From positions 74,333-138,332 of the forward strand of contig JACPCL010000029.1 in NCBI GenBank assembly GCA_016179765.1: 64,000 bases of DNA, read 5' to 3'. The translations under genes were made by a program, and so were the position numbers. This document shows positions 2,833 through 45,483 of the stretch, piece after piece. Positions within the stretch are counted from its first letter, which is position 1; every line of letters starts with the position of its first letter. The stretch is from Chloroflexota bacterium. Lineage in GTDB: Bacteria > Chloroflexota > Dehalococcoidia > Lucifugimonadales > JACPCL1. The notes under the pieces are model-generated. The model worked only from the letters and a program-made list of their open reading frames with translations. It was not told where the DNA came from and searched no databases.

Positions 2833-5811
2833 TCACCCGTTGAGCCAAACGCTCTCCAGGGTGGGCACGCCCTGGGCCGTCAGCGCATACCCCTGGACGT
2901 AGGGCTTCACGAGCACGTAGCTGGTTCCATGCCACAGGGGGACGGCAGCACCATCCTGCAGGAGGAGGTCCTGGGCCTGGCGGTACAGACCCAGCCGTTG
3001 CCCCGGGGCTTGCGCGATGCGCGCCGCCTCCAACAAGGCGTCCACCTGGGGATTGGCGTAAGCGCCGGTGTTGTTAGGTGCGCCGGCGTGGAAGAGCACA
3101 TCCAAGAGGTTCTCCGGGTCGGGGTAGTCGGCGATCCAACCGAAGTCGAAGAGGTTATCCACCTCCGCTGACAGGCGATAGAAGTATTCGTCGGTGGGTA
3201 TAAGGCGGACCGAAATCTCCACGCCAAGGTTTGCCCGCCACATCTCCGCCGCCGCTCCCAGGAAGGGGGCGATCTGGTCCAGGCCGGAGGAGGTGTAGAC
3301 GATGGTGGGTAACCCTGCCGGGCCGCCGTAGCGGGACTGGGCCAGAAGCCGCCGGGCCTCCGCCGGGTCATAGGGCAAACCCAGAGGGTTGGGGGTGTAC
3401 CCGGGCATCCCTGGGGGAAGCAGTCCTACGGCCCGTTGCACGTACCCTTCCTGGTCGGCCTCCACAAGCCTGTCCACCTCAAGGGCCATGGCAAAGGCGC
3501 GTCGCACCAGGGGGTCATCAAAGGGCGGCCTGGCGGTGTTGAAGCCGATGTAGAAGACGGAGAGCTCGCCGTAGGTACGCAGCTCGCCAGCCAGGCGGCT
3601 CTGGGGGTCCAGGATGCGAGGCAAGCTGCCTGCGCCCACTTGGACCGAGCCAATCTCGCCCTCCTCGTACAGGCGTATGGGCGGCTCTGTCAGGAATCGG
3701 AAGGCCACATAGCGGACGCCCTGTTGCGCCCGGTAGAAGTCTGGGTTACGCTCCAGGAGGAGGTGCTGCCCCGCTTCCCATGCCTTTAGCCGGAAGGGGC
3801 CGCTGCCATTGGGCGCGCGCCACCACTCCGGGCCATCCGCCACGTTTTCATGGTCTACCACGTAGGCTACCGGGTAGGCCAGCTTCGCCAGGAAGTAGGC
3901 CTTCGGCCCGTCAATGGTGATCTCCAGGGTCCTGTTGTCCAGCACCCGGACGCCTGAGACGGTCTGGGCCGCCCCCGCCAGCCTGTCGTTTACGCCCAAG
4001 ATGTCCGAAAGATAAGTGGCGGCGGTGGGCGAGTGGAGGGCCGGGTCTGTAGCCCTCTGCAGGGAGTAGGCGATGTCCTGGGCGGTGATGGGCCGGCCGC
4101 TGTGAAACCGGGCGTTGGGCCGCAGGTGGAACCGGTAGCGCGTGCCGCCATCCAGCGCCTCCCATGACTCGGCCAGGTCTGGGGCCAGGCGAAGGCTCTG
4201 GTCCAGGCGCACCAGGCCACTGAAGATGTGGGCCACGTACAGGAGAGAGGTGGTGTCCTGGGAGAGGGCTGGGTCCAGGGAGCGAGGCTCCCCTTCGGCC
4301 AGGACCAGGGTCTGGGAGCGAGGCACGCCAGCCAGCAACTCGGCGCTGGCTGTGGGGGTCGGGAAGGGGGTTGGGGTAGAGGTAGGCGAAGGCGTAGGCG
4401 TAGGGGTTGGGGTGGGCGTGGGAACAGGAACGGTCGTCCCCGTTGGCGTGGCCACGAGGATAGGGGTCGGAGTGACCGTAGGGGTGGGCATCGGCAAGCC
4501 ACCGTTGCAGCCACCCCTTGACGTAGCCCTGGCGGGTGTGAGAGTGGGGAGTGTTGTGGGAGTAAGGGTTGGAGTGGCTACGATTGCAGGGGCCGCTGTT
4601 GGGAAGGGCGTGGGTGTGGGTGTGGGCGTATCCAAAGCATAAGGCTCAAAGGCAGGCAGCACGGGCGTGGGCAGGAGCAGGCGCGTCCCGCCGGCCCCTG
4701 CCTCCCTCGGTGGTGCGCCGACGTGCGCCCGCCAGAGGGCGTCCAGGCCCTCCTGGTCAAAGCCGTAGGTTGCCCGCAATGCGGCGTCGGCCTCTGCGCC
4801 GCGCCGGATAGCATCCAGCAGAAGGCGCAGGCGCTCCGGGCCATAGGTAAGCGACAGGTAGGCCGCCAGGCTGTTGCTCTGGCCGTAGGCGAGCAGCGCC
4901 TCCTGGGCGTCCGTGGGGAAGCCATTGCTCAAACCCGGCACGGATAGCAGGCGGCCAGAGCGTATGCCCTCTTGCAAAGGCCCGCCGTAGGTGGGCTGGA
5001 CCTGGCCCGAGGGGTCCTCGTTATAGGTGGCCAGGCCCTCATTGAGCCAGGTGGGCAGACGGCCCAGGCAGGTGAAGGTGGCCTGGTCAAGAAGGACGTG
5101 GGTGACCTCGTGGGCGACGGCGCGGCGGCCCCAGGTGAGGGAGCCTGGGGCGATGCCGATGGCGATGATGTTGAAGCCGGCGAATGCCACGCCGCCGGTC
5201 CACTCTTCTGGAAAGACGAGGGCGTCTTGCAGGTGCTGGCCGGATGCGTAGATGTAGAGGCTGAGGGGACCCGTGGGCTGGAGCTGGGCCAGGGCCTCCA
5301 GCCTTGCCAGGGACTCCTGGGCGGAGTCCAGCAGGGCAGCGGCGAAGGCGTCGTCCCCTTCGTACCAGAAAAGTCGTATGGGGCCACGGGACATCTGCCG
5401 CCAGGGGCGCCGGCTGTCCTGGGCCTGGAAGGTTTGCCAGGGGGTGTCCAGGGCCGGGCCAGTCCGGTCTCCAAGGAGCCACCGGTAGCGCACCGTAGCG
5501 CCTGGGGGCAGGCTGCCACCCTTGCGCAGGTCCCAGGTCCAGGAGGCGCTGAGATGGGGCGACGGCGGGAAGTCGGCGAAGCCGCTGGTCTCCACCGGGG
5601 CGCAGGCGCGCTGCTCCGTGGCAAAGCGCACCTCTGCCCTGGTGATGTTAGACGGCCCCTGGGCGCGCAGTTGAAAGGTGATGGCGTTGGGGAAGGCCGG
5701 GGCGACGCTGCTCTCCAGGAGGCGTATGCCCTCCTGGGCGGTGGCAGGCAGGGTCGCCAGGAGGGCCAGGCCCAGGAGGAGGAGAAGAAGGAGACGATGG
5801 ATGGGCATCAC
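2833..5811 (-). CDS. Secreted fusion: gluzincin-type metallopeptidase-like domain + ABC-transporter peptide-binding protein
   Basis: A 992-residue exported protein in three parts. Residues 1-25 form a signal peptide. Residues about 30-380 are a peptidase-MA-like domain with HEVTH at 234-238 and a third ligand candidate Glu258 in LNEGLATY, the order expected for gluzincins. Residues about 385-490 are a low-complexity Pro/Thr linker. Residues about 495-985 are a family-5 extracellular solute-binding protein (SBP_bac_5), with RSQTLVLAEGEPRSLDPAL at its start and the SWEALDGGTRYRFHLRPNARF and LLERNPDFY motifs. There is no lipobox. No permease or ATPase genes are adjacent, so the binding domain may act with a transporter encoded elsewhere or as a cell-wall protein. 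It starts 3 bases after the prfB stop, so the two are probably cotranscribed. Two adjacent ATG codons make the start uncertain by one residue. Confidence 0.88.
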   Translation of the reverse strand: MMPIHRLLLLLLLGLALLATLPATAQEGIRLLESSVAPAFPNAITFQLRAQGPSNITRAEVRFATEQRACAPVETSGFADFPPSPHLSASWTWDLRKGGSLPPGATVRYRWLLGDRTGPALDTPWQTFQAQDSRRPWRQMSRGPIRLFWYEGDDAFAAALLDSAQESLARLEALAQLQPTGPLSLYIYASGQHLQDALVFPEEWTGGVAFAGFNIIAIGIAPGSLTWGRRAVAHEVTHVLLDQATFTCLGRLPTWLNEGLATYNEDPSGQVQPTYGGPLQEGIRSGRLLSVPGLSNGFPTDAQEALLAYGQSNSLAAYLSLTYGPERLRLLLDAIRRGAEADAALRATYGFDQEGLDALWRAHVGAPPREAGAGGTRLLLPTPVLPAFEPYALDTPTPTPTPFPTAAPAIVATPTLTPTTLPTLTPARATSRGGCNGGLPMPTPTVTPTPILVATPTGTTVPVPTPTPTPTPTPSPTSTPTPFPTPTASAELLAGVPRSQTLVLAEGEPRSLDPALSQDTTSLLYVAHIFSGLVRLDQSLRLAPDLAESWEALDGGTRYRFHLRPNARFHSGRPITAQDIAYSLQRATDPALHSPTAATYLSDILGVNDRLAGAAQTVSGVRVLDNRTLEITIDGPKAYFLAKLAYPVAYVVDHENVADGPEWWRAPNGSGPFRLKAWEAGQHLLLERNPDFYRAQQGVRYVAFRFLTEPPIRLYEEGEIGSVQVGAGSLPRILDPQSRLAGELRTYGELSVFYIGFNTARPPFDDPLVRRAFAMALEVDRLVEADQEGYVQRAVGLLPPGMPGYTPNPLGLPYDPAEARRLLAQSRYGGPAGLPTIVYTSSGLDQIAPFLGAAAEMWRANLGVEISVRLIPTDEYFYRLSAEVDNLFDFGWIADYPDPENLLDVLFHAGAPNNTGAYANPQVDALLEAARIAQAPGQRLGLYRQAQDLLLQDGAAVPLWHGTSYVLVKPYVQGYALTAQGVPTLESVWLNG

Positions 5812-40208: not shown

Positions 40209-40895
40209 TTACACGCTCAACCATCCTCTGTTCATGGCAGCAACGACGGCTCCCGTGCGATTCTTGGCGCCTAGCTTGATGAGTACATTCTCTATGTGCG
40301 CCTCCACGGTTTTCACTGCGATATGCATGTCTGTAGCTATTTCGGTGTTCTTGCGGCCATCAGCCACACGTTGAAGAACCTCAGCCTCCCGGACCGTGAG
40401 GTTCCGATCGCCTAACGTCGGCTGAGGGTGGGCTCCCTCCTGAAACGTCAGAAGATCCAACACCTTGGGTGCGATGGGGGGCGCAAATACCAACCATCCC
40501 TCGGCAGCGTCATGTACCGCTCTTATGAGTTCGTGCACAGAGCCAGTTTTCATGAGGTACCCACTCACTCCTAGCTTGACCAGTACCGATACGTATTGGC
40601 CATAGTCATAGGCGCTGACCACCAATATCTTGGTGGTTGGCGAAATGGTCTTGACAGCTTTGCTGACATCTATCCCGCTCCCTTCGCCGAGCCGAATGTC
40701 CACTACCGCCACATCCGGTTTAAGTTGGCCTATCAGCGAGATTGCCTCTTTGCTGCTCGCTGCTTCGCCAATCACCCTAATGTTTCGGTCTTGGGTCAGT
40801 GAAGCCTTTATACCCTGGCGGATGGTTTCCTGGTCGTCTACTACGACCACCGTGACTATGCGCTCGGCGATAGCTATATTTGTAGTCACACTCAT
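40209..40895 (-). CDS. NarL/ComA-type response regulator, divergent from the signalling operon
   Basis: A 228-residue regulator: receiver domain with acidic pair Asp20/Asp21 (VVVVDDQET), phospho-acceptor Asp66 (VAVVDIRLGEGSG), Ser in LVVSAYDYGQY and Lys in YLMKTGS. The C-terminal LuxR-type helix-turn-helix is about residues 160-220 (LTVREAEVLQRVADGRKNTEIA, KTVEAHIENVLIKLGAKNRT). AAAGGAG precedes the ATG. It resembles the regulator at 44833-45483 across its length and is transcribed away from the X-Q-P-A operon from a shared 424-base intergenic region, so it may be a second output or a feedback regulator of the same system. Confidence 0.92.
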   Translation of the reverse strand: MSVTTNIAIAERIVTVVVVDDQETIRQGIKASLTQDRNIRVIGEAASSKEAISLIGQLKPDVAVVDIRLGEGSGIDVSKAVKTISPTTKILVVSAYDYGQYVSVLVKLGVSGYLMKTGSVHELIRAVHDAAEGWLVFAPPIAPKVLDLLTFQEGAHPQPTLGDRNLTVREAEVLQRVADGRKNTEIATDMHIAVKTVEAHIENVLIKLGAKNRTGAVVAAMNRGWLSV

Positions 40896-41177
40896 TTCTC
40901 CTTTGCGACTCGTTCCACGGCTCTCACGCCTCTAGCTTGAAGCGTCCCCTAACTACCAGGGTAGCTAGAGAAACCAGATGGTGCATCGGGGCCAACCAAG
41001 AAAACCCTTACGTGGGACTCGCGGTGATCAGACGCCTACATACAGCCCCGCCACGCAGACAAACCCCGTGCCAACGTCGTCGGATACTTTACGATGTAGC
41101 CTCCACGGCTATCGTAGCAATCTCCACTCGTTCCCCCCTTGGATGCGACCAGCCTAAAGCAGTACCATTAGCCATTA

Positions 41178-41274
41178 TACGTACGTACCCTCGTTAGTGG
41201 TTTCCTCTACGGGTTTATGAGTACGTAAATACCCTTACGCAACGCTTGTCCCTTAACCTTTCTTTAACTACTAT
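41178..41274 (+). promoter_or_regulatory. Promoter and candidate operator of the X-Q-P-A operon
   Basis: -35 TTGTCC (41246-41251), 17-base spacer, -10 TACTAT (41269-41274), about 45 bases before the first start codon. Upstream are TACGTACGTA (41178-41187) and TACGTA (41222-41227), each followed by ACCCT, and CCCTTACG occurs at 41232-41239 and also at 41005-41012. These repeats are candidate sites for the two LuxR-type regulators. No gene is seen in the rest of the 40896-41319 gap. Confidence 0.5.
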
Positions 41275-41319
41275 TACCTCCACGGACGCAGAGTCCACAC
41301 ATTCTCTAAGGAGGCGGCT

Positions 41320-41535
41320 ATGGACATTCGTGAACTGGAGAAAGCGGTACGGACGGCTATTCGGACATCCCCCACGACGCCTGCTCTGGCGACCCTGGCG
41401 GGCAACGGACAGAGTGGCGCACTGCTACCGGCGGAGCTGGATACGGCTGTGCAGAGCTTGCTGCAACGTCTCCACATGACGGCTCGTGGGGATGGCATGG
41501 AAACGAAGGAAGCCGGCTCCTTGCCCTGGGTCTAA
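41320..41535 (+). CDS. Candidate ComX-like pheromone precursor peptide
   Basis: A 71-residue peptide that I do not recognise by sequence but that stands in the position of a pheromone gene: directly upstream (38 bases) of an isoprenyl-synthase-like gene and a kinase/regulator pair. ComX precursors are 50-75 residues long, with a Trp close to the C-terminus that ComQ prenylates before release of a 5-10 residue peptide. Here the C-terminus is METKEAGSLPWV, with Trp70 next to last and the only Trp in the protein. The N-terminal part (MDIRELEKAVRTAIR) is amphipathic. AAGGAGG precedes the ATG and a promoter lies 45 bases upstream. Identification rests on context, length and Trp position. Confidence 0.65.
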   Translation: MDIRELEKAVRTAIRTSPTTPALATLAGNGQSGALLPAELDTAVQSLLQRLHMTARGDGMETKEAGSLPWV

Positions 41536-41573
41536 TCATCAGGCAACGACTTTGAGAGGAACGGGCCAGTTTG

Positions 41574-42548
41574 ATGTCAAGCGCGCTGGCAAAGGAAATC
41601 AGGGCGCTCGTGGACCTGTATTGCAGTGAGCCGGGTCACCGAGAGGCCATGCTGTGCGCCCTGGGGCAGCCAGGCTTTGTCCTGCACCCCGAGGCTCCCC
41701 GCCGCGCCGGCACCCTCACTCTAGAGGTGTACCAGGCCATCTCCGGAGCACTGAGTATCGCGGCCATCCAGGGTGCGGCAGGAGTGGAGCTTCAGATGGA
41801 GGCTGCCTACCTGTTTGACAGGGTGGCAGATAGGGAGACAGGTTCAGGCCAGGGCCTGAGCGCTGCCGAAGAGCTGGCTCTGGCCATAACCATGCAGACC
41901 TGTGGGGCGGCTGCCGCCTGTGAAGCTGTGCACCGGGCAAAGGGAAATGGGGTCGGCCTTCGGCCGCTGCTTCTCCTCTTTGAGAACTGCGTGAGAGCCT
42001 GCGCCGGACAGTTCATGGACGCCCGCCTGGAAAAGCGCAACGTCGCCACCACGGACGAAGCCTTGAACATGACCTCCCTTAAGGCCGGGAGCCTGGGCAG
42101 GTTCGCGGCCGAGTTCGGCGCTGGCCTGGCCACCGATGAAACGGAAACTATCAGGCTATGTGGGGACCTTGGGTTCAATCTGCTTACCTATGCCCAGTTG
42201 ATGGATGACTTGAGGGATGCGTGTCCTGTGGTTTATGCAGAGGGAGATTTGGCGCGGCATAAGAAGACTCTGCCCCTCGTATTTTTCTACGATTCTCTGC
42301 TAAAATCATCTCCGCCGGATGGCGAAGTACGGACGTGGGCAAGCTCGGGTGAAGGTTATCCAGACACATGTCTGGAATTTGAAAGGTCCGGCGCCAGGGT
42401 CTTCTCCGCCATAATCGCTGAGGTCTTTCTCAATCGGGCAAAATCCAACTTGGTGGACCTACGAGGTCGCGTTGTTGAGGTGAAGGGTCTTGAGGATCTC
42501 CTGGACTCACTCGTTGGCAGCTCGGCGAGGACCGTTGTGGTTTCGTAA
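41574..42548 (+). CDS. ComQ-like class I isoprenyl-diphosphate-synthase family protein
   Basis: A 324-residue all-helical protein of the polyprenyl synthetase/ComQ group. Visible: first aspartate motif LFDRVAD (Asp82, Asp86), KAG at 170-172, GQFMD (Gly145-Gln146), the second aspartate motif QLMDDLRD (Asp211, Asp212, Asp215), and HKKTLPLVFFYDS, which matches the GK-TLP region after the second motif. The first motif is shorter than DDxxD, as in ComQ-type transferases that do not elongate chains. ComQ attaches a farnesyl or geranyl group to the pheromone Trp. ATG at 41574 is taken; a TTG lies 3 bases upstream. The kinase gene begins inside its last codons. Confidence 0.85.
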   Translation: MSSALAKEIRALVDLYCSEPGHREAMLCALGQPGFVLHPEAPRRAGTLTLEVYQAISGALSIAAIQGAAGVELQMEAAYLFDRVADRETGSGQGLSAAEELALAITMQTCGAAAACEAVHRAKGNGVGLRPLLLLFENCVRACAGQFMDARLEKRNVATTDEALNMTSLKAGSLGRFAAEFGAGLATDETETIRLCGDLGFNLLTYAQLMDDLRDACPVVYAEGDLARHKKTLPLVFFYDSLLKSSPPDGEVRTWASSGEGYPDTCLEFERSGARVFSAIIAEVFLNRAKSNLVDLRGRVVEVKGLEDLLDSLVGSSARTVVVS

Positions 42549-44805
42549 TCTTCTCGTCTCTGTCGCTCCCCGTCTTTCCAGGGTTGCTGCGTTTTCTCTC
42601 CTCGCCGCCTATATTGTTGTTGTGGCCACAGCCTACACCTCCTCGCAGCAACAAGCCTCCCTCGCGTTCCAAATAGAGCCTTGTGGAGATACCCACTGCG
42701 TTGCTTCAGTTACGCCTGGAGGTGCAGGTTGGTTTCTTGGAGTCAGGCCGAGAATGGAGGTCCTGGCCATCAACGGGCAGCCGTATGCCAAGGTCAATAC
42801 AGACATCACTATTGATGAGCCTATAAGGCAGACCCGTCTCCTGAGCACAACGGGAGAACTTCTGGACGTGGAGTTGAGCCCGAAGTCCGCCTCCCAGGGT
42901 CGCGAAAATTTCTTCATGTGGACCCTTGGCGGCGTGTTTGCCTTGCTTGGCACAACCGTTGTCCTTCGCCGGCCAGACCTTCACGCTGCTAGAATGTTCT
43001 GGCTGTTTGCCGGAATGACCGCCATCGCCCTCGCCGCAGGTCCTAGCTCTGGCCTGGGGTTTGCCTGGGCGCGGATCGTACAAGTCCTGAGTCTGGTAGG
43101 TGTTGGGGCAACCCTTCTCCCGTTCGTATCCATGCTTACCAGAGACCGTCTAGCATCAGGACGCTCTTTAGTTGCTCCCATATTCGCGAGCCTGGGAATC
43201 ATCATCACGGCCTCCTATGGAGCGTCACTCTTTTTCGTGCCACCTCTTTATCAACTGGTGCGACCGATGTTTCTTCTCTATGTGTCTACGTCGGTTGTTG
43301 CCGCCGTTGGCCTGCTTGCCGTAAAAGGAGTCCGCCAACGGTCGCCTGCTGGCCGTCAGCAGGCGCGGATCGTCCTATTGGGAATTGCACTGGGCACACT
43401 GCCGGTCATAAGTCTTACGGTTGTTCCTGAGGCGCTAGGGTATGGTTCGCTCCTTCCTGTCCATTTGCCCATTCTGGCCTTGGGTCTCATTCCGGTCTCT
43501 TTTGCCTACGCTATCCTTCAGTACCAGCTACTGGGAATTCGTAAACTGGTTCATCGCGGCATGGTGTATGGCCTGGCCACTTTTGCACTGCTACTACTCG
43601 TTGCCTTGGTGTTGACACTAGCGCCACTCCCGAACGAAGTTGTTGCCAATGAATCTCAACCCGTTTGGGTCTCCACCATTCTCGTTGGTGCAGTATTGCT
43701 CTTTTTCGTGTTGCGTCGGTCGGCGCTATGGTTAGTGGACAATTTCATCTACCGTGATGTGGTTAATTATCGGTCGGCCCTTGAGGTCTTTCGCAGGGAC
43801 CTACCTGCTCCTGACCGGCTCCCCGAAGTGGCAGAGCTCATCGCTCGTCGTCTCGCCCAAATTGTGCACGTGGAGTCAGTCCTCTTGTACCTGGGCCATG
43901 AACCAGCTCAATGCCAGTTGACAGCGGCAGCAGGTGAACGTACACAGGAGATTCTCGGTCACGTACGTCCCCATCTGGAAACATATATAGAAGGTTCAAA
44001 AACCCGAGAGTTAGCAGAGTTACATTGGGAGTCCGACTCCCTGTTGCTCGTGAACCTCTCGGTATGGGGGCGGTACTTGGGCTATGTGCTCCTGGGGCCA
44101 AAAATGGGAGGCGAAATCTTTCTGGAAGAAGAAAAACGACTGGTTGCTACTATCACGCCATTGTTGGCCCTTGCCTTTGAAAAGAGTATGCTCTCTGAGG
44201 AGCTGAGGGGGGTGAACCAACGCCTCACGAAAGCTGAGGAGGCGGAACGAGGCCGCATCGCCGGCGATCTGCACGACGGGCCCCTTCAGAAAGCCATAAC
44301 GCTGGCAGGAGGGGTAAGCTCCACAGGCAATGGTCAGGTCAATCTCGCACGGCAGCTCGTCCTGGAACTTAGGGAAATCTGCTCCCGCCTCAGACCCGCG
44401 ATTCTGGACGATCTGGGGATCGTCCCGGCTCTGGACTGGCTTCTAGATGGGGTGTCTCAACAGTCCGGCATCAAGGCTCTCCTGTCGTTGCTTAATGTGA
44501 GCGAAGAAGATAGGTTTTCACCAGAAACCGAACTGGCCTTATTCCGTGTTACTCAAGAGGCCACCAACAACGCTGTCAAACATGCGAAAGGCACCTCGGT
44601 GGAGGTGTCGCTTTCCAGAGAAGGCCATAGCCTCGTCCTGAAAGTGGCAGATGATGGCATCGGCTTTGCCGCCTCATCCTATGGGAAAGGTGGGTTTGGC
44701 CTCTCCGGGATGCGGGAGCGTGTCATGCAGGTCGGAGGCTCCTTTGAAATCAATTCGGCGCCTGAGTTGGGTACAACGATTATAGCTAGAGTTCCCCTCG
44801 GGTAG
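42490..44805 (+). CDS. ComP-like multi-membrane histidine kinase
   Basis: Up to 771 residues from TTG 42490, overlapping comQ-like by 59 bases; TTG 42535 (756 residues) is an alternative start with GAGG before it. After a first membrane span (about 35-52) comes a PDZ-like extracellular segment (VASVTPGGAGWFLGVRPRM, VLAINGQPY). Then about seven to nine spans (140-430), a GAF-like region (440-575), a HisKA_3 dimerisation helix with phospho-acceptor His595 (GRIAGDLHDGPLQKAI), and a HATPase domain (TQEATNNAVKHAKG, VADDGIGF, GGFGLSGMRERV). Length, order and the PDZ-like loop match Bacillus ComP (769 residues), which senses the prenylated ComX peptide. Predicted partner: the regulator at 44833. Confidence 0.9.
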   Translation: MRISWTHSLAARRGPLWFRNLLVSVAPRLSRVAAFSLLAAYIVVVATAYTSSQQQASLAFQIEPCGDTHCVASVTPGGAGWFLGVRPRMEVLAINGQPYAKVNTDITIDEPIRQTRLLSTTGELLDVELSPKSASQGRENFFMWTLGGVFALLGTTVVLRRPDLHAARMFWLFAGMTAIALAAGPSSGLGFAWARIVQVLSLVGVGATLLPFVSMLTRDRLASGRSLVAPIFASLGIIITASYGASLFFVPPLYQLVRPMFLLYVSTSVVAAVGLLAVKGVRQRSPAGRQQARIVLLGIALGTLPVISLTVVPEALGYGSLLPVHLPILALGLIPVSFAYAILQYQLLGIRKLVHRGMVYGLATFALLLLVALVLTLAPLPNEVVANESQPVWVSTILVGAVLLFFVLRRSALWLVDNFIYRDVVNYRSALEVFRRDLPAPDRLPEVAELIARRLAQIVHVESVLLYLGHEPAQCQLTAAAGERTQEILGHVRPHLETYIEGSKTRELAELHWESDSLLLVNLSVWGRYLGYVLLGPKMGGEIFLEEEKRLVATITPLLALAFEKSMLSEELRGVNQRLTKAEEAERGRIAGDLHDGPLQKAITLAGGVSSTGNGQVNLARQLVLELREICSRLRPAILDDLGIVPALDWLLDGVSQQSGIKALLSLLNVSEEDRFSPETELALFRVTQEATNNAVKHAKGTSVEVSLSREGHSLVLKVADDGIGFAASSYGKGGFGLSGMRERVMQVGGSFEINSAPELGTTIIARVPLG

Positions 44806-44832
44806 CCTGCTAGTCGCAGTATGGAGCGATAG

Positions 44833-45483
44833 GTGAATCCTCCCATACGAGTTCTCATCGTTGACGACCAGCGAATGTTTCGCGAGGGAATCCGTAGTCG
44901 CTTGGAGCAGGAGCCGGATATTGAGGTGGTGGGAGAAGCTGCATCGGGGAAAGAGGCTTTGGCGTTAGTGGCGCAGTCCACCCCTGCCATTGTACTGGTG
45001 GACATTCGGCTGCCTGATATGACAGGAATTGAGTTGGCTCGTGCCTTGCGGCGGCAGTGGCCGGAGCTGAAGATCCTGGTCCTAACGGGTTATGACTTTG
45101 ACCAGTATGTCCGAGCAATGGCGCGAGTGGGTATAGATGGCTACATGTTGAAAGACTCAACCCAAGACGCACTGGTGGAAGCACTCCACGAGATTGCTGC
45201 AGGGGGTGCAGTAATACCACCAGATATCGCATCCAAAGTCATGCGAAGCTACTCTGCTCTCTCATCGGGAGCCCGCGGCTGGCAGCTTGGCGATCTAACT
45301 TCACGGGAGATGGACGTAGTTGAACTGATGTACCAGGGGCTGAAAAATACCGAGATTGCCGATCGCCTTTCCATCTCGCCTAGAACCGTAGAAGCACACG
45401 TAGGCAACATTATCTCTAAACTAGGAGCTCTGAGCAGGGCAGAGGCGGTTCGTATTGCCTTGCAGAAGAATCTGATCAAGTAA
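44833..45483 (+). CDS. ComA-like NarL-family response regulator
   Basis: A 216-residue regulator (ComA is 214). Receiver: Asp11/Asp12 (VLIVDDQRMFREG), phospho-acceptor Asp57 (IVLVDIRLPDMTG), Thr85 and Lys107 (GYMLKDST). LuxR-type DNA-binding domain at about 153-210 (LTSREMDVVELMYQGLKNTEIADRL, SPRTVEAHVGNIISKLGA). GTG start at 44833 with GGAG six bases upstream, 27 bases after the kinase stop, so it is cotranscribed with the kinase. It is the expected phosphorylation target. Confidence 0.93.
   Translation: MNPPIRVLIVDDQRMFREGIRSRLEQEPDIEVVGEAASGKEALALVAQSTPAIVLVDIRLPDMTGIELARALRRQWPELKILVLTGYDFDQYVRAMARVGIDGYMLKDSTQDALVEALHEIAAGGAVIPPDIASKVMRSYSALSSGARGWQLGDLTSREMDVVELMYQGLKNTEIADRLSISPRTVEAHVGNIISKLGALSRAEAVRIALQKNLIK

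Follow-up and report, generated by a model that had tools for sequence, protein, structure and literature searches.

The window analysed here, a 64,000-nt stretch of a Chloroflexota genome, carries four co-directional genes, designated X, Q, P and A, that probably constitute a signalling system based on a tryptophan-prenylated peptide. The module is a ComQXPA-like variant rather than ComQXPA proper, and we consider it likely that it works as a self-contained peptide-pheromone module in the manner of ComQXPA.

Organization of the locus

X (71 amino acids; nt 41320–41535), Q (324 amino acids; nt 41574–42548), P (771 amino acids; nt 42490–44805) and A (216 amino acids; nt 44833–45483) were all located on the + strand and close-set, with a gap of 38 bp between X and Q, an overlap of 59 bp between Q and P, and a gap of 27 bp between P and A. 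ORF calls and domain searches gave the same positions for the four packed genes as had originally been predicted. For P, the earliest possible start codon was TTG, and the exact start is uncertain. A further gene, absent from the original prediction, diverged from X (nt 40209–40895, - strand) and encoded a second NarL-type response regulator of 228 amino acids, with Pfam domains Response_reg (1.3e-21) and GerE (2.6e-18). The 424-bp region between this gene and X (nt 40896–41319) probably serves as a control region for both directions; it possessed an ideal ribosome binding site, AAGGAGG (nt 41308–41314), just 5′ of X and a weak repeated 12-mer, AAAACCCTTACG/AATACCCTTACG, at nt 41001 and 41228. 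The genes had been described as tightly packed behind one promoter; the packing was observed, whereas a sigma-70 promoter scan ahead of X gave no match above background. Neither an exporter nor a protease gene was present in the X-Q-P-A cluster.

Distribution of related loci

In whole-genome searches of the window's class with Q, 16 of 393 genomes scored at least 238 bits, while housekeeping enzymes scored 216 bits and less. Three close relatives (L013, L014 and L015; 50–56% identity in Q), from two families of Dehalococcoidia (Chloroflexi) other than that of the window, shared the full layout, that is, a divergent NarL-type regulator followed by X, Q, P overlapping Q, and A, with different flanking genes. 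The layout was common to the window and these relatives, which represent three families of the class. A full-length Q match of 39% was found in an Acidobacteria MAG, and a search of the phylum around it identified 4 of 297 genomes, all with X-Q-P; in L112, the clearly readable case, A was located downstream of P. In the Acidobacteriota loci L110 to L113, a divergent kinase/receiver protein occupied the position held in the window by the second NarL-type regulator.

Altogether, 23 X-Q-P loci were read, 19 from Chloroflexota and 4 from Acidobacteriota, with X read in the window, L013–L020, L052–L057, L065, L072, L084–L086 and L110–L112. A kinase gene was situated directly 3′ of Q in all of them, and X preceded Q in the window and in every relative read, in agreement with the departure from the Bacillus order Q-X-P-A that had been noted; the synteny search proposed earlier recovered the full layout in three relatives of the class and X-Q-P throughout. 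Q groups other than the window type also had the order X-Q-P, some with a hybrid kinase bearing its own receiver. L053, L057 and L072 come from small genomes, each a single contig, that belong to one genus (f24/g77); in these three, X and Q were followed by a hybrid kinase of 1066–1081 amino acids with a receiver, and the X cores ended in GPMAGWL, GPMAGWF and GPMGGWF, respectively. No relative was found in viral contigs, and a plasmid search with the window Q gave no match.

Sensor kinase, response regulator and proposed mode of action

The membrane histidine kinase encoded by P had been predicted to carry HisKA_3/HATPase and a PDZ-like loop. The HisKA_3 box and HATPase domain were located by hmmscan at residues 586–601 and 681–770 (nt 44245–44799, + strand); of the two kinase domains that characterize ComP, HATPase_c (PF02518) was confirmed (E 7.8e-15, 55.7 bits), whereas HisKA_3 (PF07730), at 18.6 bits, was below the cut-off of 24. 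The sensor half aligned with canonical ComP over 320 columns in hhalign (E 1.7e-10, probability 96.9), while a control comparison of P with MFS transporters, an unrelated polytopic family, gave no match (E 0.31). A chain of pairwise BLAST comparisons led from the window P to the P of L053 (7e-19) and from there to ComP (8e-15). An AlphaFold2 model of P of moderate confidence (pLDDT 66.5), built, as was that of Q, on an alignment of five rows, began with a single helix, continued with five strands plus a short helix, and ended in nine further helices, giving ten long helices in total; the identical arrangement of helices and PDZ-like loop has been reported for ComP (PMC9620489). In this model, the predicted PDZ-like extracellular loop lies between membrane helices 1 and 2 (nt 42667–42873, + strand). 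Foldseek of the model returned PDZ domains of Ctp proteases at high probability, with E values above 0.3, and nothing at E<=0.001. The PDZ-like loop is therefore regarded as supported, not proven, by the sequence alignment and the predicted pattern of strands and helix. The product of A possessed Response_reg (PF00072; 2.2e-27) and GerE (PF00196; 2.9e-20), which identified it as the predicted NarL-type regulator, and its 216 residues fall in the ComA range of 196–245. The profile searches thus bore out the likeness of the sensor to ComP and of A to a NarL-type regulator of ComA size.

By analogy with ComQXPA, X would be a ribosomal precursor with its N-terminal part acting as a leader. Q would bind an allylic prenyl diphosphate via D82, D86 and Mg and move the prenyl group onto Trp70 of X, which would then be cut to a short prenylated C-terminal peptide and released. 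P would sense this matching ligand extracellularly, using the PDZ-like loop together with the multi-helix membrane domain, and would phosphorylate A, leading to a change in transcription that may depend on cell density. As for the second regulator, encoded divergently, it probably provides an additional output or acts as a partner in regulation. One point against the pheromone reading is that PalQ, the only enzyme for NHLP substrates found to have been studied, requires a terminal Trp (PMC10853753), whereas here one residue follows the Trp. Also counting against it are the window X, which matched neither RiPP nor ComX profiles, the cluster devoid of exporter and protease genes, and the HisKA_3 score under its cut-off.

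Alternatively, the product of X and Q might be a prenylated RiPP, chiefly antimicrobial or surface-active, which P and A would sense for self-induction or immunity. NHLP-clan leaders such as those of related X genes serve in RiPP pathways, and C10-prenylated Trp peptides made by PalQ gain antimicrobial activity (PMC13290415). However, genes for transport, immunity or additional tailoring are missing from the conserved cluster, the resemblance of the sensor is specifically to ComP, and the X core varies across relatives while the Trp is constant, as in pheromones. An antimicrobial role is accordingly judged unlikely, and the pheromone module is retained as the preferred reading.

The prenyltransferase-like protein Q

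Q matched PF00348 with 37.2 bits (cut-off 27) and, at 324 amino acids, was slightly longer than ComQ (286–309 amino acids). In a maximum-likelihood tree of 18 Q proteins, four canonical ComQ (L067, L069, L070 and L071) and 17 housekeeping prenyl synthases, the latter mostly of one kind and PalQ and ChrPC not being included, Q and ComQ were split from the housekeeping enzymes by one branch with support of 100/100, while the position of ComQ within Q was not resolved. For this tree, L072 was taken as an X-Q-P locus and L049, a wrong-frame ORF, was left out.

As shown by column comparison, the residues G-K-R-P (GKxxRP, near 41–46), H75, N76, R91 and R92, invariant or nearly so across the 17 housekeeping synthases, were missing in window-type Q and ComQ, both of which conserved D82, D86, Q146, D149, K170, Q208, D212, D225 and P234. 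The GKxxRP, His, Asn and RR positions are those that we take, as established for the prenyl synthase family, to bind IPP. Judged from its residues, this pattern suggests an enzyme that may ionise an allylic diphosphate but would no longer accept IPP. The two predicted motifs, D-RVA-D and QLMDDLRD, were both located: the first Asp-rich motif (FARM) is a DxxxD formed by D82 and D86 (nt 41817–41831, + strand), and QLMDDLRD (nt 42195–42218, + strand) comprises Q208, D211, D212 and D215, with Gln208 three residues ahead of the second Asp-rich motif (SARM). The outer two Asp of the FARM were invariant in all Q and ComQ, and the second Asp of the canonical DDxxD was lost in window-type Q, which thus had DxxxD and a SARM DD, versus DDxxD and ND in the sampled ComQ and most other Q. 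The Gln preceding the SARM was shared by all window-type Q (5/5) and all ComQ (4/4) and by 12/13 of the remaining Q; it also occurs in housekeeping enzymes and is not diagnostic alone. A structural comparison of Q with ComQ had been proposed; the AlphaFold2 model (pLDDT 70.7, poor at residues 217–276 after the SARM) had the isoprenyl-synthase fold, and the matches named were prenyl synthases, Ord1 structures among them.

Could Q be an ordinary isoprenyl diphosphate synthase or a terpene enzyme, with X unrelated to it? PF00348, the fold and the SARM DD retained by window-type Q would fit such an enzyme, but the loss of the IPP-site residues, the separate clade, the Trp-ending X conserved ahead of Q at each complete locus checked, and the existence of another synthase-like gene in the window genome argue against it, and we consider this reading very unlikely. 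Neither X nor P adjoined the housekeeping synthase loci checked. The outcome named beforehand as contrary to the original prediction, namely a Q among housekeeping synthases and relatives devoid of a Trp-ending ORF, did not hold, given the 100/100 split and the presence of X in 23/23 loci. Less probable still is a Q that, like Ord1, prenylates free tryptophan, with the small molecule as the ligand of P and X merely assisting: Ord1 is among the fold matches and has the identical Q-x-x-D spacing, but X is co-conserved beside Q, always with a C-terminal Trp, which would be needless for a free-tryptophan enzyme.

The precursor peptide X

The product of X, a 71-residue peptide as predicted, ended in SLPWV with Trp70 (codon at nt 41527–41529) as the penultimate residue. 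A small gene with a Trp within the last 12 residues directly preceded Q in all 23 loci; the Trp was penultimate in 17, terminal in one (L086), third from the end in one (L110), and lay between positions -5 and -12 in the other four (L016 and L054–L056). Among 794 background small ORFs from these loci, 4.2% had a penultimate Trp and 24% a Trp in the last 12 residues; the 23 loci being mutually related, the contrast with 4.2% is not a probability in the strict sense, but 17/23 is at odds with a chance reading. L054, L055 and L056, whose Q belongs to a subfamily outside the window's class, had the Trp 11–12 residues from the end, a placement that suggests a longer core or a follower.

Homologues of X occupied the equivalent position in the relatives, a ribosome binding site was present ahead of every X gene checked, and the Trp was invariant in the X alignment (A3). 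Purifying selection was indicated by dN of 0.15–0.58 versus dS of 0.31–2.2 in the five pairs with both estimable. Whether relatives constantly possess a Trp-ending X had been raised as a check, and the C-terminal Trp was kept in every complete relative. That X is a chance ORF, for which one could cite that the window X by itself matches no family, has next to no probability in view of homologues with ribosome binding sites, dN well under dS, and a Trp invariant in all complete relatives.

No match to PF05952 (ComX family) was found by hmmscan among 16 X proteins, while three canonical ComX proteins, used as positive controls, did match; a genome profile search with PF05952 gave no match anywhere, controls included, and is thus uninformative on absence. 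Six of the 16 related X proteins matched NCBIfam NF038399 (Os1348 NHLP-clan model; best E 5.6e-12); the window X was not among these and matched no RiPP, ComX or other family profile. By profile, X is placed outside the ComX family, and related X genes carry predicted NHLP-clan leaders, as does PalX. The canonical ComX peptides compared (..EIWN, ..GYWM and ..SYWK) likewise carry a penultimate Trp. In a profile comparison, NHLP-type X and canonical ComX were in register without significance (prob 1.2), and we therefore do not claim that X and ComX share an ancestor.

Occurrence of ComQXPA and wider implications

A 2014 census of 9,590 genomes by Dogsa found ComQXPA in Firmicutes only (PMC4008528), and a ComP-ComA-type pair alone has been noted in Chloroflexi (PMC8895600). 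A literature search with limited coverage, taking in few subscription journals and no preprints, returned no ComQXPA case in Chloroflexota or Acidobacteriota; together with the census, this is in line with the earlier statement that no Chloroflexota case had been described.

Three plasmids deserve mention. One labelled Stenotrophomonas rhizophila (L069; CP031730.1, nt 66660–75361) has a complete comQXPA with a ComQ that shares about 94% identity with the Lysinibacillus fusiformis protein, and is likely a mislabelled or contaminated assembly. In a Lysinibacillus fusiformis plasmid (L067; NZ_CP130332.1, nt 72269–80970), genes for a sigma factor and a DUF4179 protein come after comQ and comX in place of comP and comA, possibly a different readout of the pheromone. 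A Priestia megaterium plasmid (L068, nt 3830–4837) contains a 335-amino-acid ORF that is weakly related to Q; no small ORF ending in Trp was found next to it.

Tentatively, X-Q-P(-A) may represent an old, widespread, multi-phylum family of prenylated-Trp peptide signalling built on NHLP-clan leaders, of which Bacillus ComQXPA would be one derived branch, a possibility that we rate as less likely than not. In that case, isoprenylated-peptide quorum sensing would be no invention of Bacillota. If the signalling reading is true, largely uncultured Chloroflexota and Acidobacteriota would communicate by ComX-like lipidated peptides. The variety among Q, X and P is a starting point for asking how prenyl synthases gave rise to ComQ and how the position of the Trp is recognized, and the Q proteins are new Trp prenyltransferase candidates for peptide chemistry.

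Comparison with known systems

For the type of X, the nearest match is PalX-PalQ-PalP of Paenibacillus alvei (PMC10853753), which has an NHLP-type precursor with a C-terminal Trp (the NHLP leader being shared with related X, not with the window X) and an adjoining histidine kinase. PalQ, compared by description, is a Trp prenyltransferase of the isoprenoid-synthase superfamily with the same DxxxD (D89 and D93) and a Gln three residues before the SARM (Q-x-x-D, Q197/D200) (PMC10853753). In contrast to the window X, with its penultimate Trp, PalX ends in Trp, a terminal placement found here only in L086, and PalQ rejects extensions; furthermore, no regulator has been described in the Pal cluster (PMC10853753). 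Ord1 (PDB 9v4g–9v4j) shares with Q the fold and the Q-x-x-D spacing (Q216/D219 mutants), but it farnesylates free tryptophan (PMC13290415) and no peptide partner has been described.

With Bacillus subtilis ComQXPA, the module shares four co-directional genes encoding a prenyl-synthase-like enzyme, a small precursor with a C-terminal Trp, a kinase of about 770 amino acids with a PDZ-like loop and a ten-helix sensor, and a NarL-type regulator of about 215 amino acids. Q is on the ComQ side of the 100/100 branch, the P sensor is homologous to that of ComP, and X, with 71 amino acids and Trp70, fits the ComX range of 52–73 amino acids with a Trp near the C-terminus. The differences are the order X-Q-P-A instead of Q-X-P-A, an X that does not match PF05952, the FARM DxxxD and SARM DD of window-type Q versus DDxxD and ND in the sampled ComQ, the additional divergent regulator, and the phyla, Chloroflexota and Acidobacteriota. 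Thus, the designation ComQXPA-like stands for Q, P, A and the retained Trp of X, with the refinement that X is not of the ComX family; since both PF05952 membership and gene order fail, the module is a ComQXPA-like variant and not ComQXPA.
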